22,453 nucleotides of DNA from a virus. Made by a program: the position numbers and the translations under genes. The notes under the pieces were generated by a model that ran no database searches, had not been told where the DNA came from, and saw only the letters and a list, made by a program, of their open reading frames with translations. The stretch is from positions 1 to 22,453 of the IMG/VR virus record IMGVR_UViG_3300030329_006207. One strand, written 5' to 3'. This document shows positions 2,000-22,453 of the stretch, piece after piece (within the stretch, counting starts at the first letter, position 1; every line of letters starts with the position of its first letter).

Positions 2000-3040
2000 A
2001 TGCGTATAGAAACTGAACTAAAATATGATTTTGATGATGTTTTAATTCGTCCTAAAAGATCAACACTCACGTCACGAAAAGAGGTAGACTTACATAGAAC
2101 GTTCAAATTTCGAAACGGGGGATCATATCACGGCATACCAATTATGGCTGCTAATATGGATGGTGTTGGTACGTTAGAGGTAGGGAGAACATTAAAAGAT
2201 CTAGATCTCTTTACCTGTTATAAAAAGAATATTGCTGAATGGGACTTAATCGAGGCCCTTCAAGAAAATGCCGGTAAACATGTAGCTGTTACAGTAGGTA
2301 GAAACAATCACGATTATGAGCGACTGTTACGTATTAGTAAAAAGGCTAATGTGCGCAATATTTGTATAGATGTTGCAAATGGATATACTCAAGCATTGGT
2401 AGATTTTGTAAAGGCAGTAAGAAGAAAGTTCAAGAAGTGTAATATTATTGCTGGTAATGTTGTTACTGGGGAAATGGTAGAAGAGTTGCTTTTAGCAGGA
2501 GCAGATATTATTAAAGTTGGTATTGGATCTGGAAGTGTTTGTACTACAAGAATTAAAACTGGAGTAGGTTATCCTCAGTTTAGTTGTATTGCTGAATGTG
2601 CTGATGCTGCTCATGGGTTAGATGGTCATATTATTGCTGATGGAGGGTGCACAACACCTGGTGATGTAGCTAAAGCGTTTGGTGCTGGTGCTGATTTTGT
2701 TATGTTAGGTTCAATGCTAGCAGGTTCATCTGAAGGAGGGGGCGAAAAGGTTACAATAGACGATAAAGAGTATGTTGAGTTTTATGGAATGAGCAGTAAG
2801 AAAGCTAACGAAAAGCATAATGGCGGTCTTAAGGATTACAGAACGTCAGAAGGACGTAGAGTGGTTCTTCCATATAAAGGCCCTATGCGTTATATTGTAC
2901 AAGACATTTTAGGGGGTGTTAGAAGTACATGTACATATGTTGGAGCTGCTAAACTAAAACATTTAAGCAAGTGCGCAACGTTTGTAAGATGCACAAAAAC
3001 TCATAGCAAAATATATGAATCAAATACTCTAGAAATATGA
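2000..3040 (+). CDS. guaC: GMP reductase
   Basis: 346 residues, nearly the length of E. coli GuaC (347), and recognisably colinear with it from the N-terminal FDDVLIRPKRSTL through ICIDVANGY, AGNVVTGEM, IKTGVGYPQ, DGGCTTPGDVAKAFGAGADF to FYGMSS and the C-terminal LGGVRSTCTYVGA. The catalytic cysteine is C181 in GSGSVCTTR. The enzyme converts GMP to IMP and ammonia with NADPH. It lacks the CBS domains of IMP dehydrogenase, so reductase is preferred over GuaB. First gene of a run of nucleotide-sugar genes and followed by a 4-base ATGA overlap. It could redirect guanine nucleotides towards adenine nucleotides or rebalance GDP-sugar pools; both ideas are inference. Confidence 0.92.
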   Translation: MRIETELKYDFDDVLIRPKRSTLTSRKEVDLHRTFKFRNGGSYHGIPIMAANMDGVGTLEVGRTLKDLDLFTCYKKNIAEWDLIEALQENAGKHVAVTVGRNNHDYERLLRISKKANVRNICIDVANGYTQALVDFVKAVRRKFKKCNIIAGNVVTGEMVEELLLAGADIIKVGIGSGSVCTTRIKTGVGYPQFSCIAECADAAHGLDGHIIADGGCTTPGDVAKAFGAGADFVMLGSMLAGSSEGGGEKVTIDDKEYVEFYGMSSKKANEKHNGGLKDYRTSEGRRVVLPYKGPMRYIVQDILGGVRSTCTYVGAAKLKHLSKCATFVRCTKTHSKIYESNTLEI

Positions 3041-3882
3041 ACATACTAATATTAGGAAAGGGATACATAGGAAATTACCTTAATGATCGATTGCAATCAA
3101 TTGCTGCCGTAGATTTTGAAAATAGGCGTTGGTTTGATTACACGAACACGCGCATACTCGACAAACGATTCAAAGAAAAAAAATACGACTATGTAATTAA
3201 TTGTTCTGGATATACTGGTCGCCCGAATGTAGATCAAGGGGAAGAAGAAAAGGAGCTATGCTATAGGCTTAATACATTTGCACCGTTAAAAGTAAGCAGT
3301 ATGTGTAAGTTACATAATATTAATTATATTCACATCTCATCTGGTTGTATATATACCGGGTATGGAAAGCAATATACAGAAGAAGATGAACCTAATTTTG
3401 GATTGTTTAGTGAAGAAGCTTCTACTTACTCTAAGAGTAAGCATGCATATGAATTAGGATGTGACTACGGGTTGACGTTAAGAGTTAGAATGCCGTTTTG
3501 TGATGAGTTGCATGATAGATCTATATTGACTAAATTATTAAATTATGATAAATTAGTAGATTATGTTAATTCCAAAACATACATTCCAGATTTGTTAGAT
3601 TTTATTGAGCTGTTAATTAAGGGAAGTTATTCAACGAAGGTAAAGATTCTTTTAAACTTTGTTAATCCTAAACCACTAGCAACTAATCAAATTACTGATA
3701 TAATGAAAGCTCATGAGCTATACAACACTAACTGGGAGTGGGTACATTTTGAAGAGCTACGCACAAAAGCTAATAGATCTAACTGCATCCTTTCTACTAC
3801 AAAGTTAGAAGAAACATATGGCTTTAAGCTCATTGACGAAGAGGTTGCAATTGAGAAAGCGTTAGCCAATATATCAACATGA
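3037..3882 (+). CDS. NDP-sugar epimerase/reductase, NRS/ER-like (rhamnose synthesis)
   Basis: A 281-residue extended SDR protein with an N-terminal nucleotide-binding loop GKGYIG (7-12), VINCSGYTGRPNVD (53-66), SSGCIY (101-106), the catalytic YSKSK (Y131, K135) and LTLRVRMP (146-153). This string of motifs resembles the bifunctional 3,5-epimerase/4-reductase (NRS/ER) of plants and mimivirus more than bacterial RmlD. NRS/ER turns UDP-4-keto-6-deoxyglucose into UDP-L-rhamnose. No separate RmlC-type epimerase gene is visible nearby, as expected if this enzyme does both steps; the matching dehydratase would be the gene at 6938. Overlaps guaC and the next gene by 4 bases each (ATGA). RmlD-like reductase is the alternative. 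Confidence 0.7.
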   Translation: MNILILGKGYIGNYLNDRLQSIAAVDFENRRWFDYTNTRILDKRFKEKKYDYVINCSGYTGRPNVDQGEEEKELCYRLNTFAPLKVSSMCKLHNINYIHISSGCIYTGYGKQYTEEDEPNFGLFSEEASTYSKSKHAYELGCDYGLTLRVRMPFCDELHDRSILTKLLNYDKLVDYVNSKTYIPDLLDFIELLIKGSYSTKVKILLNFVNPKPLATNQITDIMKAHELYNTNWEWVHFEELRTKANRSNCILSTTKLEETYGFKLIDEEVAIEKALANIST

Positions 3883-4811
3883 GTGAAAGAATTTTAATAA
3901 CAGGGGGCACTGGGCTGGTTGGAGCTGCTTTAGCTGAAGCTTATAATTCGACATCCGAAGAAGTAACTTCAATAGGTAGCAGTCAGTATAATTTAACTAA
4001 ACAGTCGCAAGTAAATTCAATGTTTATGAATCACCGACCTACAAAGGTTATACATGCCGCAGCTAAGGTTGGGGGCTTGGGCTCAAATATGAAATATAAA
4101 GGTGAGTATTTCTATAAAAATTTAATGATGAACACCAACGTTATTGATCAAGCTAATGTTTGGGGTGTTAAAAGATTAGTAGCGTTTTTGACTACATGTG
4201 CATTCCCAGCAGATGTTCAATATCCTCTAGATCATACAAAAATTCATTTAGGAGAACCACATGAATCTAATTTTGGTTATGCCCATGCTAAAAGGATGGC
4301 AGAGGTTCAAATTAGAGCATACCGGGAGCAGTACGGACGAAAATATTCTTGTGTAATACCTACAAATATCTATGGCCCTAATGATAACTTTTCCTTAGAG
4401 CATGGCCATGTAGTACCCATGCTAATCCATAAGCTTTATAAAGCGCAGCGTGATGGTACAGATTTTAATGTATGGGGGTCAGGTAAACCTCTCCGGGAGT
4501 TTATTTTCGCGCAGGATGTAGCAGAGCTTACAAAGTGGGTGCTTCATAACTATGATGGAGAAGATCCTCTTATTTTATCTACTTCAGATGAAATAAGTAT
4601 CGAACATCTAGTTGATTTATTAGTAAAGGAATTTAAATTTACAGGTAAGGTAAAATTTGATAGGTCAAAGCCTGATGGTCAATATAGAAAGCCATCAGAC
4701 AATTCGCTAATAAAAAGCCTAGTACCTGCATTTAAGTTCACCCCAATCGAAGAAGGAATAAAACAAACAGTAGAATGGTTCAAAGAAAATTATGACAAAG
4801 CAAGACGGTAA
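3879..4811 (+). CDS. fcl: GDP-L-fucose synthase (GDP-4-keto-6-deoxymannose epimerase/reductase)
   Basis: 310 residues, the usual length. It has the NADP-binding GGTGLVG (9-15), HAAAKVGGLGSN (59-70), the family-specific TTCAFP with the presumed epimerase cysteine C107, the catalytic YAHAK (Y134, K138), PTNIYGPNDNF (161-171) and HGHVVP with a conserved histidine near 177. It carries out the 3,5-epimerisation and 4-reduction that yield GDP-L-fucose from the product of Gmd. ATG overlaps the upstream stop by 4 bases, and its 3' end overlaps gmd by 20 bases, so the two are translationally linked. The order fcl-gmd is reversed relative to the pathway. Confident on function. Confidence 0.92.
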   Translation: MSERILITGGTGLVGAALAEAYNSTSEEVTSIGSSQYNLTKQSQVNSMFMNHRPTKVIHAAAKVGGLGSNMKYKGEYFYKNLMMNTNVIDQANVWGVKRLVAFLTTCAFPADVQYPLDHTKIHLGEPHESNFGYAHAKRMAEVQIRAYREQYGRKYSCVIPTNIYGPNDNFSLEHGHVVPMLIHKLYKAQRDGTDFNVWGSGKPLREFIFAQDVAELTKWVLHNYDGEDPLILSTSDEISIEHLVDLLVKEFKFTGKVKFDRSKPDGQYRKPSDNSLIKSLVPAFKFTPIEEGIKQTVEWFKENYDKARR

Positions 4812-5778
4812 AGTAGCTCTCATTACAGGTATAAATGGGCAGGATGGTTCTTATCTCGCTGAATTTTTAGTAGATAAAGGATACGAAGTATGGGGAACAG
4901 TAAAACGTAATTCTGTTGCAGAGAATCAAACTGCCCGTTTAAATGGTGTTTACGATAAGATTAAGGATAATTTACAGTACGTAGATATGACTGACCTATC
5001 GTCTCTTGTTAGAATTATTCAAGAGTCTCAACCCGACGAGGTATATAATCTTGCAGCGCAATCACATGTAAGAGTATCTTTTGATCAGCCAATATATACA
5101 GCAAACACAACTGGTATTGGTACTCTAAATTTATTAGAGGCAGTTCGCCTTATAAAACCAGATGCTAAAATTTATCAAGCATCTTCTTCTGAAATGTTTG
5201 GTAATAATATTGATGAAGATGGCTATCAACGTGAAACTACTTTAATGCACCCGGTATCACCATATGGTTGTGCTAAAGTCTTTTCATATAATATTTGCCG
5301 CAACTACAGAAATTCATATGGTATGTTTATTTCTAACGGAATACTCTTTAATCATGAATCACCTAGACGGGGTAGCAATTTTGTTACTAACAAAGTAGCT
5401 AAAGGAGCTGTAGAAATATCAAAGGGTCTTAGTAAGGAATTAACTTTAGGAAATTTACATGCAGCTCGAGACTGGGGGCATGCAAAAGATTATGTGGAAG
5501 CTATGTGGTTAATGTTGCAGCAAGAAGAGTCGGGCGATTTTGTATGCGCTACAGGAGTATCACATACAGTGTTAGATCTAGTTAAGCACGTATTTAAAAG
5601 GCTTGATTTAGATTGGAAAAAATTTGTTACACAAGATAAAAAGTTTTTGCGACCAGAAGAACTAGACGTATTAAAGGGCGATAGTACTAAGCTAAGAGAG
5701 GCTACAGGATGGGAGCCTAGATATACTTTTGAATCTATGATAGATGAAATGGTTGATCACTGGGTTGTGAGTTTATAA
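4792..5778 (+). CDS. gmd: GDP-mannose 4,6-dehydratase
   Basis: 328 residues, slightly shorter than bacterial Gmd. It begins with ALITGINGQDGSYLAEFL (9-26), the signature glycine loop of this family, then NLAAQSHV (86-93), SSSEMFG (131-137), the catalytic YGCAK (Y158, K162), FNHESPRRG (186-194) and the late motif ARDWGHAKDYVEAMW. It removes water from GDP-mannose to give GDP-4-keto-6-deoxymannose, the substrate of the adjacent Fcl. No mannose-1-phosphate guanylyltransferase is present in the window, so host GDP-mannose would be used. ATG lies 20 bases inside fcl. The next gene begins after one base. Confidence 0.93.
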   Translation: MTKQDGKVALITGINGQDGSYLAEFLVDKGYEVWGTVKRNSVAENQTARLNGVYDKIKDNLQYVDMTDLSSLVRIIQESQPDEVYNLAAQSHVRVSFDQPIYTANTTGIGTLNLLEAVRLIKPDAKIYQASSSEMFGNNIDEDGYQRETTLMHPVSPYGCAKVFSYNICRNYRNSYGMFISNGILFNHESPRRGSNFVTNKVAKGAVEISKGLSKELTLGNLHAARDWGHAKDYVEAMWLMLQQEESGDFVCATGVSHTVLDLVKHVFKRLDLDWKKFVTQDKKFLRPEELDVLKGDSTKLREATGWEPRYTFESMIDEMVDHWVVSL

Positions 5779-5779
5779 A

Positions 5780-6214
5780 ATGAAGAACGAAATAATAGGA
5801 TTTACAGCCGGTAACTTTGATTTATTACATCCAGGTTACATATATACTTTTGAAGAAGCAAAGAGACATTGTGATAAATTTTTAGTGTTCTTGCAAAGAG
5901 ACCCTTCAGCCACAAGGTATACTAAGTATAAGCCTGTTATACCGTTGTACGAAAGGTATAGAACATTAATGTCTATCAAATATATTGATGATGTATATAT
6001 CTATCAAACAGAAGAAGAGTTATATGAGCTGATCAAATTCTGGAAGCCACATGTTAGAATTCTCGGAGAGGACTATATCGGTAAATCTTTCACAGGCGAT
6101 GATTTACCTTTAAAAGTCATTTACACAACCAGGTCTCATGATTGGTCTACAACAAAGTTAAAAGATCTAATTACAAAACAGACTATTAAACAGAACCCCG
6201 ACATTATAAAATGA
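5780..6214 (+). CDS. Nucleotidyltransferase, TagD/HldE C-domain type, with altered HxGH
   Basis: The 144-residue protein fits the cytidylyltransferase-like family that activates glycerol-3-phosphate, heptose-1-phosphate and similar compounds with CTP or ATP. It has the N-terminal GNFDLLHPGY (11-20), the middle KPVIPLYERY (51-60) and ILGEDYIGKSFTG (94-106), and the C-terminal RSHDWSTTKL (118-127), equivalent to the usual RTxGISTT. Odd point: the canonical HxGH reads HPGY, so the second catalytic histidine is a tyrosine (Y20). Activity may be changed, or this may be a distinct subfamily. One base after gmd and overlapping the next gene by 4 bases; the context suggests activating a sugar or polyol phosphate for glycan assembly. 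Confidence 0.75.
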   Translation: MKNEIIGFTAGNFDLLHPGYIYTFEEAKRHCDKFLVFLQRDPSATRYTKYKPVIPLYERYRTLMSIKYIDDVYIYQTEEELYELIKFWKPHVRILGEDYIGKSFTGDDLPLKVIYTTRSHDWSTTKLKDLITKQTIKQNPDIIK

Positions 6215-6936
6215 AAATATGTGTTTTAGTAATGACATATAAAACAGATTTATATAATCATTTTGATAGAATTAAAAGAAAGTACTTAGAAACTAAAGAC
6301 GTAGATTATTATTTTTTATATAACGGAACTGATAAAAGTTTGAATAATCCAAAAGAACATAATCTTAACTATTATTCTGATTCTTATCACCCGTCGGGGG
6401 TACCAGTAATGTGGGATAAATTTATAGCATTTATATCTGAAACTACTGGAAAATATGACTACGTTATTAAAGTAAATAGTTCTACATTCGTAAATGTAGA
6501 TAAAGTAATAGAGAAAATTGAGCAGCACAGCGACAAAGAAGATTTGTACATGGGCTATGTTTCCGAGGAAGTACAAGATCAGTTCGCGGGTAAATTTGCT
6601 TCTGGAGCACTAGCTGTTTATTCTGACACAACATTAAAAAAGTTATTAGAAGTTAGCAAGATTTTCAAACATAATCCTGAAGCACGTATGCGAGAAGATG
6701 ATGTATTAATAGGTTTAGCTTTAAAAAAAGTGCTTAAAATACCTCTCACGTCTTTAGATAGATATGATATAGCAGATGCACCTGTTGATAAGAAATATAA
6801 GAGATTTACAGTACCCTCTAATGAGGATATAGAGGAAGCATTGACCTACTCCCATATACGTATAAGAAATGATTTTGATAGAGACTTAATTGACAAAGGT
6901 ATATGGAATATTATAGAGAAAAAGCTACAATTATAA
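6211..6936 (+). CDS. Putative glycosyltransferase (GT31-like), degenerate DxD
   Basis: A 241-residue protein starting with the hydrophobic strand MKICVLVMTYKTDLY, as in nucleotide-sugar-binding domains. YDYVIKVNSSTFVNVDKV corresponds in layout to the fringe/galactosyltransferase-31 region (YDFVLKTDDDVFVNL type), followed by FASGALAVYS and REDDVLIG, which match the G-x-G-Y-hydrophobic-S and E-D-V-x-x-G elements of that family. The metal-binding DxD position reads NSS, so metal dependence or activity is doubtful. It sits between a nucleotidyltransferase and a 4,6-dehydratase, supporting a role in attaching a sugar. Overlaps the upstream stop by 4 bases, one base before the next gene. Family call is moderate. 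Confidence 0.55.
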   Translation: MKICVLVMTYKTDLYNHFDRIKRKYLETKDVDYYFLYNGTDKSLNNPKEHNLNYYSDSYHPSGVPVMWDKFIAFISETTGKYDYVIKVNSSTFVNVDKVIEKIEQHSDKEDLYMGYVSEEVQDQFAGKFASGALAVYSDTTLKKLLEVSKIFKHNPEARMREDDVLIGLALKKVLKIPLTSLDRYDIADAPVDKKYKRFTVPSNEDIEEALTYSHIRIRNDFDRDLIDKGIWNIIEKKLQL

Positions 6937-6937
6937 A

Positions 6938-7930
6938 ATGAGCAATATATTAGTAACAGGTGGCTGTGGTTTTATTGGTTCATATGTAATCGATAAACTA
7001 ATTGATTTAGCCAAATGTAAAAATTTAGAAGACCCGGATGCTATTAATATCTATAATGTAGATAAAATGGGCATTGGTTCTTCTCATAAAAATATTCGCA
7101 CAAAGCCAGAAGCGCCAGTTACTAATATACATGTTGATATTTGCTCTGACTATATACAAGATTATCTTCCAAAAAAAATTGATCATGTAATTCATTTAGC
7201 AGCTGAGTCACATGTAGACCGTTCAATTGATAACCCATTAGCGTTTGTTGAATCTAATGTAAAGGGTACAGCGAATATTTTAGAGATAGTTAGAAAGCAT
7301 AATGCTAAAATGGTACATGTCTCTACTGATGAGGTGTACGGTCATTTAGAAAAGGACGATCCTCCCTTTACAGAAGAGAGTCCTCTTGCCCCTCGATCGC
7401 CCTATTCAGCAACTAAAGCTAGTTCAGATCTATTAGTACAGGCTTATATTGAAACGTTTGGCATTAACGCTTGTATTACCAGGTGCTGTAATAATTATGG
7501 ACCACGCCAACATGACGAAAAATTAATCCCTACTGTAATTAGATCTATCATTCGAGGAGATAAAATACCTGTTTATGGAACGGGAGAGAATATTAGAGAA
7601 TGGGTACACGTTGAAGACCATGCTGAGGCTATTTTAGAAGTACTAGCTGAAGGTGAGTCGGGCGAAGTATACAATATTCCCGGTTGTATAGAACAATCTA
7701 ATATAAGAGTAGTTAACGAAATTATTGATCGTATGGAATTTCATTACCCGGAGTATAAAAGAAAGCGAGAAGGAGCGCGCATGGAGTATATAGAGTTTGT
7801 AGAGGATAGGAAAGGCCACGATTTTAAATATGCGCTTTCTACAAAGCACAGCTTACACGCTGTAAATTGCCAGGGAGGATTCTTTCTTGAGGAAACAATT
7901 AAGTACTATGTTGAAAAATATACATCCTAA
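6938..7930 (+). CDS. dTDP/UDP-glucose 4,6-dehydratase (RmlB-like)
   Basis: 330 residues, the usual RmlB length. NAD-binding GGCGFIG (8-14), HLAAESHVDRSI (86-97), the dehydratase signature STDEVYG (129-135, with the Asp-Glu pair that protonates and deprotonates the sugar), the catalytic YSATK (Y156, K160), RCCNNYGPRQ (182-191) and VYGTGENIREWVHVEDH complete the family pattern. It forms the 4-keto-6-deoxyglucose nucleotide that the NRS/ER-like enzyme at 3037 would convert to the L-rhamnose nucleotide. Whether dTDP- or UDP-glucose is used cannot be read from the sequence. Last gene of the operon. Its stop lies three bases from the stop of a convergent gene, with a short hairpin between. Confidence 0.9.
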   Translation: MSNILVTGGCGFIGSYVIDKLIDLAKCKNLEDPDAINIYNVDKMGIGSSHKNIRTKPEAPVTNIHVDICSDYIQDYLPKKIDHVIHLAAESHVDRSIDNPLAFVESNVKGTANILEIVRKHNAKMVHVSTDEVYGHLEKDDPPFTEESPLAPRSPYSATKASSDLLVQAYIETFGINACITRCCNNYGPRQHDEKLIPTVIRSIIRGDKIPVYGTGENIREWVHVEDHAEAILEVLAEGESGEVYNIPGCIEQSNIRVVNEIIDRMEFHYPEYKRKREGARMEYIEFVEDRKGHDFKYALSTKHSLHAVNCQGGFFLEETIKYYVEKYTS

Positions 7931-12442: not shown

Positions 12443-12450
12443 TATTTATT
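12443..12450 (-). promoter_or_regulatory. Class B-like promoter
   Basis: AATAAATA on the minus strand, nine bases before ATG 12433 and overlapping the stop of the small upstream gene. Spacing is longer than at other class B sites. Confidence 0.4.
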
Positions 12451-12595
12451 CCGGCGTTAGAATCTTCTCTATCTTTTCTAGACTGTCTTTCATTTCTGTC
12501 TGATGCTTCCTATCTTCTGCCATCATACATAGGAGAAAGAATAGAATGCCTATCCCAATGAGGGTTCTTAACCACGATAAGGTACCAGCTTTCAT
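12446..12595 (-). CDS. Tiny single-span membrane protein
   Basis: 49 residues: a short basic start (MKAGTLSWLR), one hydrophobic helix (TLIGIGILFFLLCMM, about 11-25) and a charged coiled-coil-like tail (EDRKHQTEMKDSLEKIEKI). N-terminal anchor plus a helical periplasmic or cytoplasmic tail resembles very small inner-membrane phage proteins, including miniature i-spanin-like ones, but length is short for a spanin. Its ATG overlaps the stop of the prenyltransferase-repeat gene (AAATGA), so the two are probably co-translated. No RBS of its own. Confidence 0.6.
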   Translation of the reverse strand: MKAGTLSWLRTLIGIGILFFLLCMMAEDRKHQTEMKDSLEKIEKILTPE

Positions 12596-14064
12596 TTAGA
12601 AGAGGGTAGGTATCTATAATAGACCTCCAGCATTAAAGTGCAGAGGCATGTAGAGTATAATGCTCCATCAGGTCCAACTTGACCATGCCCACCGGAAGGA
12701 AGCCATGATCCGTCTTTCTGCTGTGATTCAGATATTAGTGTTTGATAAGAATCGTTATATTGTCTCCAATGATTACCTTGTTTTTGGAATGCTGCTAAAG
12801 AATGATAGTACCAAGCATATGCTTGATTAGGAGGAAAGGATTTAGGTTTCTTAGAGATAATTAAATCTAAAGATTTGTCTTCGAGCTTAGAAGGTGCTCC
12901 CAACATTCTAGCGCTGTAAGCTCCTACACCTGTGAGAGATAATTTACCTCGTTGACCATCATTTACTCTATATCTAAAGTAGCCATCAGTGCCATTAGGA
13001 TCTTCAGCTGACTTCAAATAACGGACAGCTTTTTGTTTGGCTCTTTCTAGTCCAGAAAATTTAATGCCAGTTAGCTCGGCTGCTTTTAACGCTTGTATAT
13101 TCCATCCAGAGACAGATAAGTCTCCTGTACCATTTGATCCATAGGAATATAACCACCCGCCCCCATTTGTCTGACCTTCAATTACTATTGGAATGCCTAC
13201 CTTAAGCGCAGGAGATATTCTCCTAAAAGAGGTACGAGCATTTTTATTCATAGAATAGGCTTCTGCTAATGAATACATTGCAATGCCATGTTCATATGAA
13301 AGGTTACGATCACGAGAGGTTGTAATATATCCCTTACCTTTATCTGATACATCCAAGAGGTACTCAATTGCAGCTTTAACTGATTTACCGAACTCAGGTG
13401 AATCAACAGTCTCACAATGACCACTATATGCTAGTAAAGCAAACGATGTCATTGCGATAGGAAACTTTGTACCAAAAGAACCATCCGGCTTCTGCTGAGA
13501 TTTGATCCATCTCAGAGCATTTAAGACCTGAGTGTCCATTTTTCTCTTACCACCTGCTTTAATTAAACGATTAATTCTATCAGATGTACCACACCTACCT
13601 CCCATAGCTGTAGGTACTCTAAAGCCGCCTCCAATACCAGTCCCAAATCCACCAGCTCCAAACCCATCATTAAAACTAGTACCTATAGTTGGTGCTAAAC
13701 TATCAACAGACGGTAATGATATATTTGAAAGATTATTAGATACGATAACATCAGCTGGCTTGCTATCAGGTCTCGAGGGTCTACTGTTGCGAACAGAAGT
13801 AGCAAACGTATTTTTATTGATCTTTACTTCTTTTTGACCCTGTGTCGCAGATACTATTAATTCTATCTGCTCATCTTTTAAAATGGCAATAGTTAAAAAT
13901 GCTAGCAACATCATTAAGAGACCAATGATGCATATAGAAATGCCTAATGAGATTGCTTTGCTACGATTTTCTTGTCGACGTACTATATTTTCTATAGGAT
14001 CCTCTTCTGGTACATAAACAACATTAGCAACCGGAGCATAATAACTATGTTCGTTTGCCTTCAT
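12592..14064 (-). CDS. Membrane-anchored squalene-cyclase/prenyltransferase-repeat protein, host-derived
   Basis: 490 residues. Residues 1-36 are cytoplasmic-type, 37-62 a hydrophobic anchor (ISLGISICIIGLLMMLLAFL) and about 65-160 a Ser/Asn/Gly-rich linker ending in a glycine-rich FGAGGFGTGIGGGF. From about 180 to 485 comes an alpha/alpha toroid with prenyltransferase/squalene-cyclase repeats, seen as QQKPDGSFG (191-199), QTNGGGWLYSYG, and QQKDGSW near the C-terminus. This architecture is common in Verrucomicrobiota and Planctomycetota genomes and unusual in phages. The catalytic DxDD of true squalene-hopene cyclases is not visible, so terpene cyclisation should not be assumed; protein or lipid binding at the cell surface is possible. 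It lies six bases after the interrupted gene and overlaps a tiny membrane gene. Confidence 0.8.
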   Translation of the reverse strand: MKANEHSYYAPVANVVYVPEEDPIENIVRRQENRSKAISLGISICIIGLLMMLLAFLTIAILKDEQIELIVSATQGQKEVKINKNTFATSVRNSRPSRPDSKPADVIVSNNLSNISLPSVDSLAPTIGTSFNDGFGAGGFGTGIGGGFRVPTAMGGRCGTSDRINRLIKAGGKRKMDTQVLNALRWIKSQQKPDGSFGTKFPIAMTSFALLAYSGHCETVDSPEFGKSVKAAIEYLLDVSDKGKGYITTSRDRNLSYEHGIAMYSLAEAYSMNKNARTSFRRISPALKVGIPIVIEGQTNGGGWLYSYGSNGTGDLSVSGWNIQALKAAELTGIKFSGLERAKQKAVRYLKSAEDPNGTDGYFRYRVNDGQRGKLSLTGVGAYSARMLGAPSKLEDKSLDLIISKKPKSFPPNQAYAWYYHSLAAFQKQGNHWRQYNDSYQTLISESQQKDGSWLPSGGHGQVGPDGALYSTCLCTLMLEVYYRYLPSSK

Positions 14065-14069
14065 TCATT

Positions 14070-14420
14070 CTACTTTTTCTTTTTCTTAGGCGGATGCCCG
14101 TGAGATTGTTCACGAATAACTCTTACGTTATCAGCTTTCATCGTCACTAAAAAGCCATTAACATCAACATAATACTCTTCAATAATTCCCTGCGGTGTTA
14201 AGCTATGATCAACAACTCTAAACTCTTCATCTTCATCAGCACCGACCGGTGCAACGTGAGTAGCTCAGTTATGTTCTAGATCTTTACCAGTATGATCATC
14301 CTTACCGTGCTTCTTATCAGCCCAGTCAGGTACACCATCTTTATCAGCATCTGGCTTTTTCTTTTTACTTTCAATGAATGTTTTCCATATAGGATCTTGT
14401 CTATCACCAACTCGTTTCAT
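14070..14420 (-). pseudogene. Small charged protein gene interrupted by in-frame TGA
   Basis: From ATG 14420 the frame encodes 51 residues (MKRVGDRQDPIWKTFIESKK..., then PDADKDGVPDWADKKHGKDD, a Ca2+-loop-like Asp-rich segment) and meets TGA at 14265-14267. The same frame then stays open for 64 more codons (VAPVGADEDEEF, GIIEEYYVDVNGFLV, PPKKKKK) to TAG at 14070. Codon and amino-acid style are the same on both sides, so a single nonsense change, a sequencing error or stop read-through would explain it. TGA is an ordinary stop elsewhere in the window. A perfect class B box precedes the start. If not broken, the product would be 116 residues. Alternatively only the 51-residue N-terminal protein is made. 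Confidence 0.6.
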
Positions 14421-14425
14421 ATTAT

Positions 14426-14433
14426 TATTTATG
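14426..14433 (-). promoter_or_regulatory. Class B (T4-late-like) promoter
   Basis: CATAAATA on the minus strand, five bases before ATG 14420. It probably drives the whole leftward run through the prenyltransferase-repeat gene. Confidence 0.6.
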
Positions 14434-16032: not shown

Positions 16033-17142
16033 GTGAAAGTGTTGGCAAGCTTGTTTGGACTCCTAGCTTCTATTGTTCTAGGAACAGCAACCTATGCTCA
16101 GACGTCTATTTCTACTCCGTTTGGCTTTCATACTCAGACTATACAGCATGTGGGTCCCAATGGAAAACAAGGGCATTTTACCTTAGTAGGATCCCCGGCG
16201 TTTACAAAAGGGTCGTCCACAATTGAAGAAATCTTTGGCATAAGCAATCAATTTGGTCTAGCTCAGGGTGATTTTACAGAAGCTGATAAAATATGGATTC
16301 ATGACCCGGAAACGGATTATTGGTCCCAAATTTATTACCAAACGCCTCAATGGCCTTTTTTTACAGAGGGATGGAAACAGATAGGGCAAGGAGATTTAGA
16401 TGCTAGTACTGTAAAGATACCTCAGAATGCTAGTATATTTTTACAGAGTGGAGTTGGAGTAAGCGATCGACCTGCTTCTCATAGTGTAGCATTTGCTTAC
16501 CTTCTTAATATACCACCGTGCACTAATTACGAAGCAAAACCCGGTACTTTCAATTTTTTTAGCCGTAGTGCTCCTGTTGGCATACCTTTACGTGATACGA
16601 GTCTTGAAAATTCTCCCGGGTATACAAAAGGCGACCAACATAATTCAGCCGATGTTTTATGGCTTCCTAATGGTGTATGGAATGCGCGTATATACGGTTA
16701 CAGCCAGTTTTTTTATACCGATGACCTTCCGCCCTTTTTTACTGCAGGTTGGAAACAAGTAGGAAAGGGTGATGAAGATATGGGGCATGTGCTATTAACG
16801 CAGTCTTTTGTAATACAAACCAAAGGACCTGGAGGTAATATTGCAATATGCAATCCTTTTGCTACCAAAGTAACTACAGCTGCACCAGGAGCCCCGCCAT
16901 CACCAGAGGTAGATGTTACAATAGATCTAGATTTAGACAGATTTGTTGTGAGCTGGGTATCCGCGGGCAGAAATATTAGATACTCTATAGAAGCATGGGA
17001 CGAGTGGTCTCGCCAGTGGTCCCGGGTCATAGTTAATGACCCGGTCTCGTCCGGAGAGCGGATTTATAATTGGGCATCTCTTGAAATGCGGAGCGCTGTT
17101 GGCCGTATAGCATGTGAATGGATAATACCTGATATGCAATAA
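16033..17142 (+). CDS. Secreted beta-rich protein resembling Verrucomicrobiota exported proteins
   Basis: 369 residues with a classical Sec signal peptide (MKVLASLFGLLASIVLGTAT, cleavage near YA-QT at 22-23). The mature part has two related blocks: GDFTEADKIWIHDPETDYWS...FFTEGWKQIGQGDLD at about 78-122 and GDQHNSADVLWLPNGVWNAR...FFTAGWKQVGKGDED at about 200-250. Such blocks recall the TIGR02597-type repeat proteins of Verrucomicrobiota. A Pro/Ala linker (TTAAPGAPPSPE) leads to a C-terminal beta-sandwich-like domain (VDVTIDLDLDRFVVSWVSAG). A full late-type box precedes GTG. It could be a virion surface protein or a product exported by the infected cell. The family link is from memory of the pattern and is tentative. 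Confidence 0.6.
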   Translation: MKVLASLFGLLASIVLGTATYAQTSISTPFGFHTQTIQHVGPNGKQGHFTLVGSPAFTKGSSTIEEIFGISNQFGLAQGDFTEADKIWIHDPETDYWSQIYYQTPQWPFFTEGWKQIGQGDLDASTVKIPQNASIFLQSGVGVSDRPASHSVAFAYLLNIPPCTNYEAKPGTFNFFSRSAPVGIPLRDTSLENSPGYTKGDQHNSADVLWLPNGVWNARIYGYSQFFYTDDLPPFFTAGWKQVGKGDEDMGHVLLTQSFVIQTKGPGGNIAICNPFATKVTTAAPGAPPSPEVDVTIDLDLDRFVVSWVSAGRNIRYSIEAWDEWSRQWSRVIVNDPVSSGERIYNWASLEMRSAVGRIACEWIIPDMQ

Positions 17143-18703: not shown

Positions 18704-18790
18704 ATGAACAAAAAACTTTTAATCGCTCACTTGGTTGATATTGCATGCTGGTTTGCTCTGGGACTTTTCTTTGGAGCTTATTTTCTTTAA
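18704..18790 (+). CDS. Tiny single-span membrane protein
   Basis: 28 residues: MNKKLLIAHLVDIACWFALG then LFFGAYFL. It has a basic start and one long hydrophobic helix. Class A promoter four bases upstream. It opens a block of tiny membrane or lipoprotein genes that ends at the lysozyme gene, so a role in lysis or envelope modification is possible. Confidence 0.5.
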   Translation: MNKKLLIAHLVDIACWFALGLFFGAYFL

Positions 18791-18801
18791 CAGGTAAGTA
18801 T

Positions 18802-18990
18802 ATGAAAAAACTAGCTATTTTATTTTTAGTAGGAGGGTCTCTCCTGTTGTCAAGTTGTAGCAGTACTAGACATTCTGCATCAGTTGCCTGGCCTGAATAT
18901 AGCCCGTTTAGAATACCAACAGGGATCAGGGTACCAGTTATTACCCCGCCACATATTACAATACCATACCATAAACTTTGGCACTATTGA
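18802..18990 (+). CDS. Small phage lipoprotein, possible outer-membrane spanin
   Basis: 62 residues. The lipoprotein signal peptide MKKLAILFLVGGSLLLSSC places the lipobox cysteine at 19 (L-S-S-C). The mature 44 residues are proline-rich (WPEYSPFRIPTGIRVPVITP), like Rz1-type outer-membrane spanin subunits, which join the inner and outer membranes during lysis. It starts 11 bases after the 28-residue gene. No obvious inner-membrane partner with a coiled coil is nearby, so a host-interaction lipoprotein is the alternative. Confidence 0.65.
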   Translation: MKKLAILFLVGGSLLLSSCSSTRHSASVAWPEYSPFRIPTGIRVPVITPPHITIPYHKLWHY

Positions 18991-18998
18991 TAAAAATT

Positions 18999-19160
18999 AT
19001 GTTTAGGTATATTACACTTTTAATTGCGTTGTCTCTTACTTCCTGTGTTACAAATTGGCAGAGAAATAGAAAGCTTAACGAGGAGATTATCGAAAAATAT
19101 TTAATAGCCCCCATGGCTGCAGAGAGTATTAAGTGCTCTACTGCTCCTGTAGTAAAATGA
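18999..19160 (+). CDS. Second small lipoprotein
   Basis: 53 residues from ATG 18999. The frame opens at an earlier TTG-type codon, but the signal peptide MFRYITLLIALSLTSC fits the start here, with lipobox L-T-S-C at 16. The mature part is short and helical (NWQRNRKLNEEIIEKYLIAP). It ends overlapping the next gene (ATGA). Together with the preceding lipoprotein it could be part of the lysis set; a spanin role is inference. Confidence 0.6.
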   Translation: MFRYITLLIALSLTSCVTNWQRNRKLNEEIIEKYLIAPMAAESIKCSTAPVVK

Positions 19161-19285
19161 TTATTAACATAATAAAACTAACCAGCATGTCCATCCTCGC
19201 AGTTCTTCTTTTTTTATCAGTAATAGCTGCACTGGTTGCGTTTATGATATTTGGTACTATCTTTCTTGGATGTGGACCATATTAG
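19157..19285 (+). CDS. Tiny hydrophobic membrane protein
   Basis: 42 residues, largely one long hydrophobic segment (MSILAVLLFLSVIAALVAFM then IFGTIFLGCGPY) after a short polar start (MIINIIKLTS). Overlaps the lipoprotein stop by 4 bases. Its stop overlaps the class B box region of the lysozyme gene. It could be a second holin, antiholin or pinholin-like peptide given its place just before lysozyme; that is inference from position. Confidence 0.5.
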   Translation: MIINIIKLTSMSILAVLLFLSVIAALVAFMIFGTIFLGCGPY

Positions 19286-19286
19286 T

Positions 19287-19294
19287 ATTAAATA
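19287..19294 (+). promoter_or_regulatory. Class B-like promoter for lysozyme
   Basis: ATTAAATA, five bases before ATG 19300. The spacing rule selects this ATG over the out-of-frame ATG at 19296. Confidence 0.5.
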
Positions 19295-19299
19295 TATGA

Positions 19300-20112
19300 A
19301 TGACGGAACAGTTTGATGAAGGCGTGAAAGAGATCTTATTGAGCTTATTATCATTAGGGGCAACTGCATATGAAACGAGCTATTTGGTTGATCTTCTAAA
19401 AGACCGTCCAGAGCCTATAGAACAAAAAATTGATGCAGTAAAGCAAGCAGATAATATTATAATTTCTCCGTCGTTTAATAAAGCAGCAGAAGAGGTAATA
19501 GATAAGTTAGAGGATCAGCCACCTGAAGCAAAAGTTAGGAGAGTTACTAAAACGAGACCTGTACAGGATGTACCGCCTGACGAATCTAGAGCTAAATCTG
19601 ATTCGCGAATTAAATCACTAGCAGGTGACTTAATTAAGCCGTCAGAAATTTATGGTACAGATATAAACCATCCAAAGAATAAGAAATTCTTAGCTCCGTA
19701 TACAGATGATGTTGGTATATATACCATAGGGATAGGTCATAAAATAGGAGACGGTACAGTAGCTGCAAAAAATAACTGGATAAAAAAGCATGGCAGTTCT
19801 ATTACTCCGCAGTTTGCTGAGAATCTATTTGATAAACAATTAGATTATCACTTAAATAGAGTAAAGGAAATTTTTGGAGCAACATTTAATGATATTTCTG
19901 ATGAGCAGGCAGCTGTGATAGTAGATATTAGCTACAGAGGCGATCTTTTACCGGGGATGGATTGGGTGAAATTATTACGGCAGGGCAAAAATACTGAAGC
20001 AGCTGTTGAATACTTGGATCATAAAGAATACAAAAAGCGGAAAAAGAGGGGTAGAGATGGAGTGGTAAAGAGAATGGAGCGTAATGCTGAAATATTAGCT
20101 GGGAGAGCATAG
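19300..20112 (+). CDS. GH24 (T4-type) lysozyme with N-terminal extension
   Basis: 270 residues. Residues 1-105 are an extension with a moderately hydrophobic start (EILLSLLSLGATAYETSYLV), then charged, linker-like sequence. The lysozyme domain spans about 107-268: GDLIKPSE (candidate catalytic E116), TDDVGIYTIGIGH (D136 and T142 correspond to T4 D20 and T26), then HGSSITPQFAENLF, DISDEQAAVIVDISYRGD and GVVKRMERNAEI at the C-terminus. The gap between E116 and D136 is about 11 residues longer than in T4 lysozyme, so a loop is inserted. It cleaves peptidoglycan glycan strands. No classical signal peptide, so release through a holin, or incorporation in the virion, is likely. Confidence 0.85.
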   Translation: MTEQFDEGVKEILLSLLSLGATAYETSYLVDLLKDRPEPIEQKIDAVKQADNIIISPSFNKAAEEVIDKLEDQPPEAKVRRVTKTRPVQDVPPDESRAKSDSRIKSLAGDLIKPSEIYGTDINHPKNKKFLAPYTDDVGIYTIGIGHKIGDGTVAAKNNWIKKHGSSITPQFAENLFDKQLDYHLNRVKEIFGATFNDISDEQAAVIVDISYRGDLLPGMDWVKLLRQGKNTEAAVEYLDHKEYKKRKKRGRDGVVKRMERNAEILAGRA

Positions 20113-20621: not shown

Positions 20622-20978
20622 ATGTACGAATACTATGCAGAACTAAGAAGAGTGGTAGATGGTGATACAGTAGATGTAGCCATTGATTGTGGGTTTAATG
20701 TTCACATTAAAGAGCGTGTGAGATTAAAGGGTATTAACGCCCCGGAGAGTCGAACTAGAGATCTTGAAGAGAAAAAGAGAGGTTTAGCAGCTAAGGAGCG
20801 GTTAATAGATATATTAACTTCATTTGGTGATAAATTTATCATCAAGACATCAATTGATAAAAAAGGAAAGTTTGGAAGATTGCTTGGTGAGCTAGTCAGT
20901 AAAGACGGGCAACAAAATGCCAATCAAATGCTTTTAGAGGAGGGGCATGCTGTAGAGTATCATGGAGGTAAGCGATGA
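20622..20978 (+). CDS. Thermonuclease (staphylococcal nuclease-like, SNc)
   Basis: 118 residues, a minimal SNc domain without signal peptide. VDGDT (12-16) supplies the first calcium-binding Asp, RLKGINAPE (34-42) corresponds to RLLIDTPE with the catalytic Arg and Glu, and KFGRLLGEL (83-91) contains the second catalytic Arg (R86). The position of S. aureus D40 is Asn (N39), a substitution also seen in other family members. It cleaves DNA or RNA with Ca2+. It overlaps the DUF1501 gene by 4 bases (ATGA), tying that host-like gene to a phage operon. Role in the phage unknown; host nucleic-acid breakdown or packaging support is possible. Confidence 0.85.
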   Translation: MYEYYAELRRVVDGDTVDVAIDCGFNVHIKERVRLKGINAPESRTRDLEEKKRGLAAKERLIDILTSFGDKFIIKTSIDKKGKFGRLLGELVSKDGQQNANQMLLEEGHAVEYHGGKR

Positions 20979-22396
20979 AGCCTACAAATACATTTTGTGG
21001 CCAGACTAGAAGAGATTTTCTCCACACAGTTGGAGGAGCATTCCCATCTCTAGCTCTTACAGGAATGTTAGCTAATGATAGTTTAGCTAATCCGCTTCCA
21101 ACTAAATCACAGATTAAGCCTGGTAAAGCTAAGTCTGTTATCTTCTTGTTTATGTATGGTGGTCCTAGTCATGTAGATACATTTGATTTTAAACCAGAGC
21201 TGTACAGATTAAACGATAAAACTATCGATGTTAAAACGTTTGGTAGAGGAGGAAAGAAAAATAAAGGTAGAGTGGTAGGTCCAAAATGGGACTTTAAACC
21301 ATATGGACAGAGCGGTAAGATGATATCAGATCTATTTCCCAATGTAGGTTCAATGGCAGATGATATTTCTTTTATTCATTCAATGGAAGCTGACTCCCCT
21401 ATTCATGGATCAGCTATGCTTATGATGAATAGTGGTTCATTAATAAGCGGTAAACCTTCTCTAGGCTCTTGGGTTAACTATGGGTTAGGATCGGTTAACG
21501 AAAACTTGCCCGGGTATGTTGTAATGTTAGATCAAACAGGAGGACCTATCTCTGGAGCAAAAAATTGGACCTCGGGATACATGCCAGCTAGCTATGCAGG
21601 TACAGTATTTAGATCACAAGGTGACCCTATTTTAAATTTAAAAAATAGTAAGGGAATGGGGTTCAGCGAACAACGGTCAATAATAGACTCGCTGAATAAG
21701 CTCAATACATTACATTTACAAGATAGAAAATATCAACCTGATTTAACTTCTAGAATTGACAGCTATGAATTAGCGTATAGGATGCAGATAGAAGCTCCTG
21801 AAGCCATTGATGTTGATAAAGAGCCTCAGCACATTAAAGACCTTTACGGGTTAGATGGTACGCGGACAGATGACTTTGCGCGTAAGATGATACTTGCAAG
21901 AAGATTAGTAGAGAGGGGAGTCAGATTTATTCAAGTATACTCTGGTGGAGCGCACAACGATTCTAACTGGGATGCCCATGGAGACTTAAAGAAAAACCAT
22001 GACTATCATGCAGGTAGAACAGATAAACCAATTGCAGGTCTGCTCAAAGATCTAAAGCAAAGAGGGTTATTAGATGAAACTATAGTTGTATGGGGTGGAG
22101 AGTTTGGAAGACAACCTACAGCAGAGTATGCAAAGGGTACAGGGAGAGATCATAACGCATATGGCTTTACAATGTGGATGGCCGGTGGTGGCCTAAAAGG
22201 AGGTACTAGCGTTGGTCAAACAGATGAGTTAGGCAGCAGAGCTGTTGAAAATAGATACCAGGTTAAGAACTTACACGCTACTATCTTAACTCAATTAGGA
22301 CTAGATCCTAATGAGCTTAGTTACTTCTTCAACGGGTTAGATCAAAAGCTAGTTGGCGTTGAAGGCGCTGACGTAATAGAAGAAATTATAGCATAA
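20975..22396 (+). CDS. DUF1501 protein with Tat signal, host-derived
   Basis: 473 residues, the usual length. The Tat signal has TRRDFL (11-16), then a hydrophobic stretch and ANDSLANP. The body contains the alkaline-phosphatase-superfamily pattern of DUF1501: LFMYGGPSHVDTFDFKPEL, SMEADSPIHGSAMLM, VYSGGAHNDSNWDAHGD, VVWGGEFGRQP and GTGRDHNAYGF, with conserved Asp/His likely to bind metal. Known DUF1501 proteins are exported and abundant in Planctomycetota and Verrucomicrobiota; substrates are mostly unproven (sulfatase or phosphatase-like). Unusually for this window it has a Shine-Dalgarno (GGAGG six bases before ATG). Overlaps the nuclease gene by 4 bases, so it is not a chance assembly joint. 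Confidence 0.92.
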   Translation: MKPTNTFCGQTRRDFLHTVGGAFPSLALTGMLANDSLANPLPTKSQIKPGKAKSVIFLFMYGGPSHVDTFDFKPELYRLNDKTIDVKTFGRGGKKNKGRVVGPKWDFKPYGQSGKMISDLFPNVGSMADDISFIHSMEADSPIHGSAMLMMNSGSLISGKPSLGSWVNYGLGSVNENLPGYVVMLDQTGGPISGAKNWTSGYMPASYAGTVFRSQGDPILNLKNSKGMGFSEQRSIIDSLNKLNTLHLQDRKYQPDLTSRIDSYELAYRMQIEAPEAIDVDKEPQHIKDLYGLDGTRTDDFARKMILARRLVERGVRFIQVYSGGAHNDSNWDAHGDLKKNHDYHAGRTDKPIAGLLKDLKQRGLLDETIVVWGGEFGRQPTAEYAKGTGRDHNAYGFTMWMAGGGLKGGTSVGQTDELGSRAVENRYQVKNLHATILTQLGLDPNELSYFFNGLDQKLVGVEGADVIEEIIA

Positions 22397-22399
22397 ATA
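22392..22399 (+). promoter_or_regulatory. Class B (T4-late-like) promoter
   Basis: CATAAATA overlapping the DUF1501 stop, five bases before GTG 22405. Identical in box, spacing and start codon to the site before 16033. Confidence 0.65.
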
Positions 22400-22404
22400 T
22401 TGTT

Positions 22405-22453
22405 GTGAATAGACGACAGTTTTTACGCGTAAATGGAGCACTAGCAACGCTTC
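22405..22453 (+). CDS. Start of a second Tat-exported protein, cut by window edge
   Basis: Only about 16 residues are visible: MNRRQFLRVNGALATL, a Tat signal start (R-R-Q-F-L-R followed by a hydrophobic run). Such starts are typical of DUF1501, DUF1552 and sulfatase-like exported proteins; which one cannot be told. GTG start placed by the class B box five bases upstream. With the preceding gene it forms a pair of Tat-exported proteins under phage control. Confidence 0.65.
   Translation, partial: MNRRQFLRVNGALATL

Follow-up and report, generated by a model that had tools for sequence, protein, structure and literature searches.

The window analyzed here, a stretch of 22,453 nucleotides (22.5 kb), is an IMG/VR viral record that contains the gene for a membrane-tethered toroid protein (Table 1). 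A 197-kb contig, IMGVR_UViG_3300030419_007641 (here L002), carries this gene with matching neighbors, and the reading frame is conserved there. Phage genes flank the toroid gene on both sides in both contigs, and since two distinct phage contigs share these neighbors, an assembly chimera was rejected as an explanation. The two toroid proteins differ at 2 residues, with 37 synonymous and 2 nonsynonymous changes between their genes, and the resulting dN/dS of 0.015 is the lowest among the eight genes compared between the window and L002; the toroid gene is kept under strong purifying selection in the phage. The 197-kb contig encodes a T4-type large terminase, matching those of T4-like phages of Rhizobium, Pseudoalteromonas, and Synechococcus at 33 to 38%, and a sheath protein. 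Although these genes were found on the related contig, the window being a fragment that lacks them, we conclude from them that the carrier is a contractile-tailed T4-like phage; its hosts are Verrucomicrobia-type bacteria.

Table 1. Features of the toroid gene and its immediate surroundings, in window coordinates
Feature	Position	Strand	Basis
490-aa membrane-tethered toroid protein gene	12592..14064	(-)	ORF, ATG start, 490 codons
Membrane helix, residues 24-62	13879..13995	(-)	DSSP of model; aligned columns
Codon of Ile47, at the motor-binding His position	13924..13926	(-)	His in 34/51 homologues; I/V/T in the window clade
D-box-like segment IELIVSAT, residues 67-74, just past the membrane helix	13843..13866	(-)	Sequence resemblance only
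Disordered Ser/Pro/Gly-rich linker, residues 75-157	13594..13842	(-)	pLDDT <50 for about residues 68-155
Codon of Cys158, predicted disulfide partner of Cys217	13591..13593	(-)	Cys co-occurrence
Alpha/alpha toroid, residues 160-485	12610..13587	(-)	AlphaFold2 model; VIA Z 26 to 2sqc; squalene-hopene cyclase profile match
Codon of Cys217, predicted disulfide partner of Cys158	13414..13416	(-)	Cys co-occurrence
49-aa single-helix membrane protein gene	12446..12595	(-)	Start overlaps toroid stop (ATGA); conserved in L002
Conserved frame beyond in-frame TGA, reaching almost to the toroid start	14070..14264	(-)	Same TGA in L002; 13 of 21 differences at third codon positions
Small upstream ORF, 51 aa	14265..14420	(-)	N-terminal part conserved in L002
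CATAAATA box, candidate late promoter	14426..14433	(-)	Consensus match only; weak

The tiny membrane gene that the original prediction had placed downstream is real: it codes for 49 residues, overlaps the toroid gene through an ATGA, and is conserved in L002. Its product is probably a partner or regulator of the toroid protein. Downstream of the host genes that we examined, no such gene was found; a convergent CtaA gene lies there. On the other side, the 51-residue ORF is probably the first cistron of the toroid gene's unit. This upstream frame (14070 to 14420, minus strand) is interrupted by a TGA in the context LEHN-TGA-ATHVAPVGA in both phages, the two known to carry it. Since the frame beyond the TGA is conserved and, close to where it begins, lacks any of the usual start codons, readthrough or a non-AUG restart is possible. 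The toroid gene had also been placed under a late box. The closest ATAAATA lies ∼360 nt upstream of the toroid start and precedes a different small ORF. Within the window, such boxes occur only 5 to 14 nt from start codons, where the A/T heptamer ATAATAA is equally frequent, and with the box so distant and ATAATAA as common near starts, expression of the toroid gene from a late promoter is not supported.

The claim that several host-type envelope genes are carried, here for this phage group, was strengthened by the 197-kb phage, in which a planctomycete-type PSCyt2 (DUF1549)/PSD1 (DUF1553) gene is directly followed by a DUF1501 gene at ∼11.3 to 13.8 kb (locus L092 of G001) and which also gave a weak match to an outer membrane beta-barrel. 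The window has a DUF1501 gene of its own (20975 to 22453) with a twin-arginine-like start, QTRRDFLH, which is absent from the matching place in L002; it is followed by a truncated frame that seemingly starts MNRRQFLRV. Elsewhere in the window, a nucleotide-sugar cluster (3037 to 7930) comprises genes for a GDP-mannose dehydratase, epimerases, RmlB-like and cytidylyltransferase-like proteins, and a Fringe-like glycosyltransferase; the glycosyltransferase gene at 6211 to 6936 is missing at that place in L002. A secreted 369-residue protein without a family match (16033 to 17142) is diverging faster than its neighbors (dN/dS of 0.20). Two small lipoprotein-like ORFs, followed by a lysozyme-domain gene that could not be aligned in L002, form a possible lysis/spanin cassette (18745 to 20112). 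L002 further carries a predicted phage-encoded RpoD-like sigma factor (positions 1260 to 2423).

An AlphaFold2 model of the window protein, built with 51 relatives, confirmed the predicted arrangement of membrane anchor, Gly-rich linker, and toroid. The anchor is the only hydrophobic helix in the protein, and the toroid consists of 12 helices, with pLDDT mostly above 90. When this predicted model was compared with known structures, squalene-hopene cyclase (2sqc) came first (Z 26.0 over 284 residues, rmsd 3.1 Å), followed by other class II cyclases and sugar-active toroids. Consistently, the family profile reached squalene-hopene cyclase at an E value of 5e-16, and 44 of the 51 members matched Pfam SQHop_cyclase_C (E ≤ 0.01). 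The window protein itself scores 16.5 bits against PF13243, below the cut-off of 26.1, and falls far under the cut-offs of the NCBIfam cyclase models. The QxxDGSxG-type repeats that had been read from its sequence are present in two copies (Q191-KPDGSFG and Q448-QKDGSW), the third being degenerate (Q298-TNGGGW). Of the 51 homologues, 41 have both Cys158 and Cys217 and the other 10 have neither; none has just one of the two. Such strict pairing suggests a disulfide and hence an oxidizing compartment, which would place the toroid on the periplasmic side.

As predicted, a pattern search detected no catalytic DxDD in the window protein. The motif is absent from 47 of the 51 members, the window protein included, and the D-x-D-D strings of the remaining four lie at scattered positions. 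An active squalene-type cyclase was therefore rejected, and a pattern search for the complement-type thioester motif also gave no match. All 51 members have the same residue at seven positions (Tyr257, Asp315, Ser317, Trp321, Tyr416, Tyr419, and Tyr420). The helix list of the model places these residues at or close to the beginnings of inner helices, which, by analogy with related toroids, would be the active-site end.

A scan of 84,980 genomes returned 327 relatives, the best of them from Verrucomicrobiales MAGs. The nearest bacterial orthologues, L003 to L010, share 61 to 66% identity with the window protein over nearly its full length (from residues 6 to 20 up to residue 490), so that the alignment covers membrane helix, linker, and toroid. 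In a maximum-likelihood tree (IQ-TREE PMSF), the window protein and its L002 counterpart are nested inside the Verrucomicrobiales genes L003 to L012 with support values of 97/90 and 100/97, and FastTree puts the window protein at the same place. Since the phage pair thus lies within a chromosomal clade, the toroid gene is a captured Verrucomicrobiales chromosomal gene, which bears out the relationship to Planctomycetota/Verrucomicrobiota proteins proposed in the original prediction. A tail or virion protein was rejected as an alternative identity, the nearest relatives being chromosomal and BFVD giving no match at E ≤ 0.001; no relative was found among 50,697 records of isolate phages, and PHROGs contained no match. 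Identity to the host copies is ∼75% in the toroid, ∼55% in the linker, and 36 to 56% in the membrane helix, which places the toroid under most constraint. The GC content of the phage gene (39%) is that of the rest of the window, and host copies range from 45 to 63%. In L003 to L009 the host toroid gene is convergent with a CtaA/COX15 gene. Family members were present in 53 of 57 genomes of the host order, with one to eight in each, and the literature searched yielded no phenotype for the host protein.

The window phage is not the only one to carry such a gene. Further viral members were found on contigs of 87 kb (L083), 192 kb (L084, together with L085 and L086), 37 kb (L100), 68 kb (L103, with a terminase), and 255 kb (L104); gene order is common to L084, L085, and L086, with toroid and terminase genes as neighbors. 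The viral label requires six changes on the tree. We left one further viral contig, L101, out of the count, since its toroid gene lies past a block of tail genes at a likely prophage edge, and this leaves at least five separate viral occurrences, that is, at least four phage lineages besides that of the window. A model of the L084 protein from eight sequences showed the same helix order, but its mean pLDDT of 57 is of low confidence and it was left out of the evidence.

Analysis of the bacterial loci pointed to an association with motor genes. In 20 of 79 bacterial toroid loci, an ExbB/TolQ-type gene and one or two ExbD/TolR-type genes lie directly upstream on the same strand, an arrangement for which we estimate from the ExbD counts per genome a chance expectation of about two loci. 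TPR genes lie near the motor-linked loci, and the ExbD gene of L062 overlaps with its toroid gene. Of the 20 toroid genes, seven code for a stand-alone membrane-toroid protein and the rest for larger proteins with a beta-propeller-like or other region ahead of the toroid. Planctomycete proteins of 1,162 to 1,524 residues (L055, L050, L074, and similar ones), located directly downstream of ExbB/ExbD, combine PD40 beta-propeller repeats with the toroid, and L055 and L050 have a carboxypeptidase-regulatory domain in addition.

In 34 of the 51 members, the membrane helix has a His at one aligned column. The position four residues ahead of this His is Ser or Ala in 33 of the 34 (background, 17%), and the position seven residues after it is Leu in 17. 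In TonB and TolA the corresponding pattern is Ser-X3-His-X6-Leu-X3-Ser, in which Ser and His contact ExbB/TolQ (PMC12215075). Many members also have an alternating hydrophobic segment right after the helix, such as EVEVTMME in L048, which resembles the D-box of TonB (PMC10907165). When helices were scored pairwise against that of TolA, 10 of the 34 His-bearing members beat their own shuffles at P < 0.05; since most scores were thus no better than shuffles, the argument relies on the aligned column and on synteny. On these grounds, the most fitting interpretation is that the bacterial family forms a class of envelope transducers that couple to a motor and have a toroid as their head. The vWA-headed "force transducers" reported from PVC bacteria in 2025 show this layout and gene order as well (PMC12204202); that study makes no mention of prenyltransferase or toroid domains. 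None of the papers found describes a toroid-headed or a phage-borne transducer.

The window protein departs from this pattern. Its modeled layout, with one N-terminal membrane helix, a disordered linker, and a globular C-terminal domain, is transducer-like, and its helix reads Ser43-X3-Ile47-X6-Leu54. In the phage pair and the bacterial clade L003 to L010, the His is replaced by Ile, Val, or Thr; the sister sequence L012 keeps it. No ExbB/TolQ or ExbD/TolR neighbors were found at the window or at the loci of its clade, and the pairwise similarity of the window helix to that of TolA was no better than with shuffled sequences. As both the motor His and the linkage to motor genes are missing, we do not class the window protein as a TonB/TolA-type transducer. 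The simplest reading is that its branch had a motor-coupled ancestor and then became a passive tether, and the window protein thus probably works as a passive tethered toroid.

Host origin, the predicted toroid fold, purifying selection, the lack of DxDD, motor synteny and the helix motif at the level of the family, and recurrence in phages are well founded, and motor coupling of the family is suggested by sequence and synteny. Taken together, we consider it fairly probable that the product of the captured gene is a periplasmic, non-cyclase, ligand-binding toroid that is tethered to the inner membrane and acts on the host envelope, belonging to a transducer-like family but to a passive branch of it. 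In this reading, which we infer for the side of the membrane, the non-catalytic role, the displacement of host protein, the timing, and the physiological effect alike, the product would be an inner membrane protein with its N terminus inside and a flexible tether in the periplasm, where a disulfide-stapled toroid of the terpene cyclase fold would bind a ligand rather than catalyze a reaction. The phage copy may supplement or displace the host's own toroid protein in the envelope, and while infection proceeds it could plausibly hold or block a process in the envelope. The original idea of a deliberate late remodeling of the host cell surface is unsupported, the protein most likely facing the periplasm from the inner membrane. 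The original prediction mentioned neither the likeness of the family to TonB/TolA-type transducers nor its repeated acquisition by phages.

Several other explanations were weighed against this one. That the phage carries a host gene without function as a passenger, or that host DNA was misbinned, is most improbable: a family carried by nearly all genomes of the host order could have been captured at random, but the excess of synonymous over nonsynonymous changes, the repeated viral occurrences, and the phage genes on either side in two distinct contigs all argue against it. An involvement in lysis or in late envelope timing, together with the overlapping 49-residue protein, would fit the phage-specific nature of that small gene and its conservation in both phages. 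We nevertheless regard it as improbable, because the lysozyme gene with its two lipoprotein-like ORFs lies elsewhere and because the toroid gene stems from a host in which its copies are unlinked to lysis genes. Quite unlikely, too, is an enzyme acting on an envelope lipid, isoprenoid, or glycan through a pocket other than DxDD. Such an activity would be consistent with the invariant residues near the inner-helix starts and with sugar epimerases and GH76 among the structural matches; however, we identified the catalytic signature of no matched enzyme family in the toroid, the cyclase motif is absent, and the same fold serves nonenzymatic proteins such as complement domains.

The phage toroids might also dock on host ExbBD/TolQR and divert the proton-driven force or block the host transducers, for example in superinfection exclusion. 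In favor of this, Ser-X3-His is retained in the membrane helices of the viral members L083, L084 to L086, L103, and L104. No ExbB/ExbD match was obtained in any of the viral records searched, some of which are fragments, so that such His-bearing phage toroids would depend on the motors of the host, and the host-clade genomes G013 to G015 do contain ExbD genes. Since the window protein itself lacks the His and part of the viral records are incomplete, we consider this predicted docking unlikely. A broader form of the idea is possible, if doubtful: phages of the Planctomycetota/Verrucomicrobiota group may repeatedly have taken up toroid-headed transducers that dock on host ExbBD/TolQR to commandeer or jam proton-driven envelope machinery. 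The bacterial family would then add an undescribed structural class, the third after TonB/TolA and the vWA proteins.

If the preferred reading is right, a large and functionally blank family of Planctomycetota and Verrucomicrobiota gains a testable role, as toroid-headed envelope proteins that are coupled to a proton motor or derived from such proteins. Its repeated capture by unrelated large phages would suggest that these phages must control some process in the envelope, and the family would give a handle on the envelope biology of bacteria that are hard to grow.

Among known systems, the closest counterparts are the Verrucomicrobiales "prenyltransferase/squalene oxidase repeat" genes L003 to L012, which share the membrane helix, linker, toroid, and paired cysteines and belong to the same clade; they adjoin CtaA/COX15, whereas the phage copy has a different N terminus and the overlapping 49-residue gene. 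The NCBIfam model of the SCO2321 family membrane protein (NF053823), a family without an assigned function, is matched by 42 of the 51 aligned members, although not by the window protein itself at the threshold used. Squalene-hopene cyclase and the other class II terpene cyclases resemble the window protein in their alpha/alpha toroid and QxxDGSxG-type repeats, but the window protein lacks DxDD, has one toroid only, uses its N-terminal helix as a membrane tether, and stays under the Pfam cut-off. With TonB and TolA it shares the topology, to which the family as a whole adds the Ser-X3-His-X6-Leu spacing and a D-box-like segment; the C-terminal domain is unrelated in fold. In contrast to TonB and TolA, the window protein has neither the motor His nor adjacent motor genes, and the loss of the His also sets it apart from the vWA transducers. 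The likeness of the family to the vWA force transducers (PMC12204202) extends to the SHLS-like helix motif, the post-helix strand, the disordered linker, the globular C-terminal domain, and the adjoining TPR, ExbB/TolQ-like, and paired ExbD/TolR-like genes, the difference being that a terpene cyclase-type toroid takes the place of the vWA domain.
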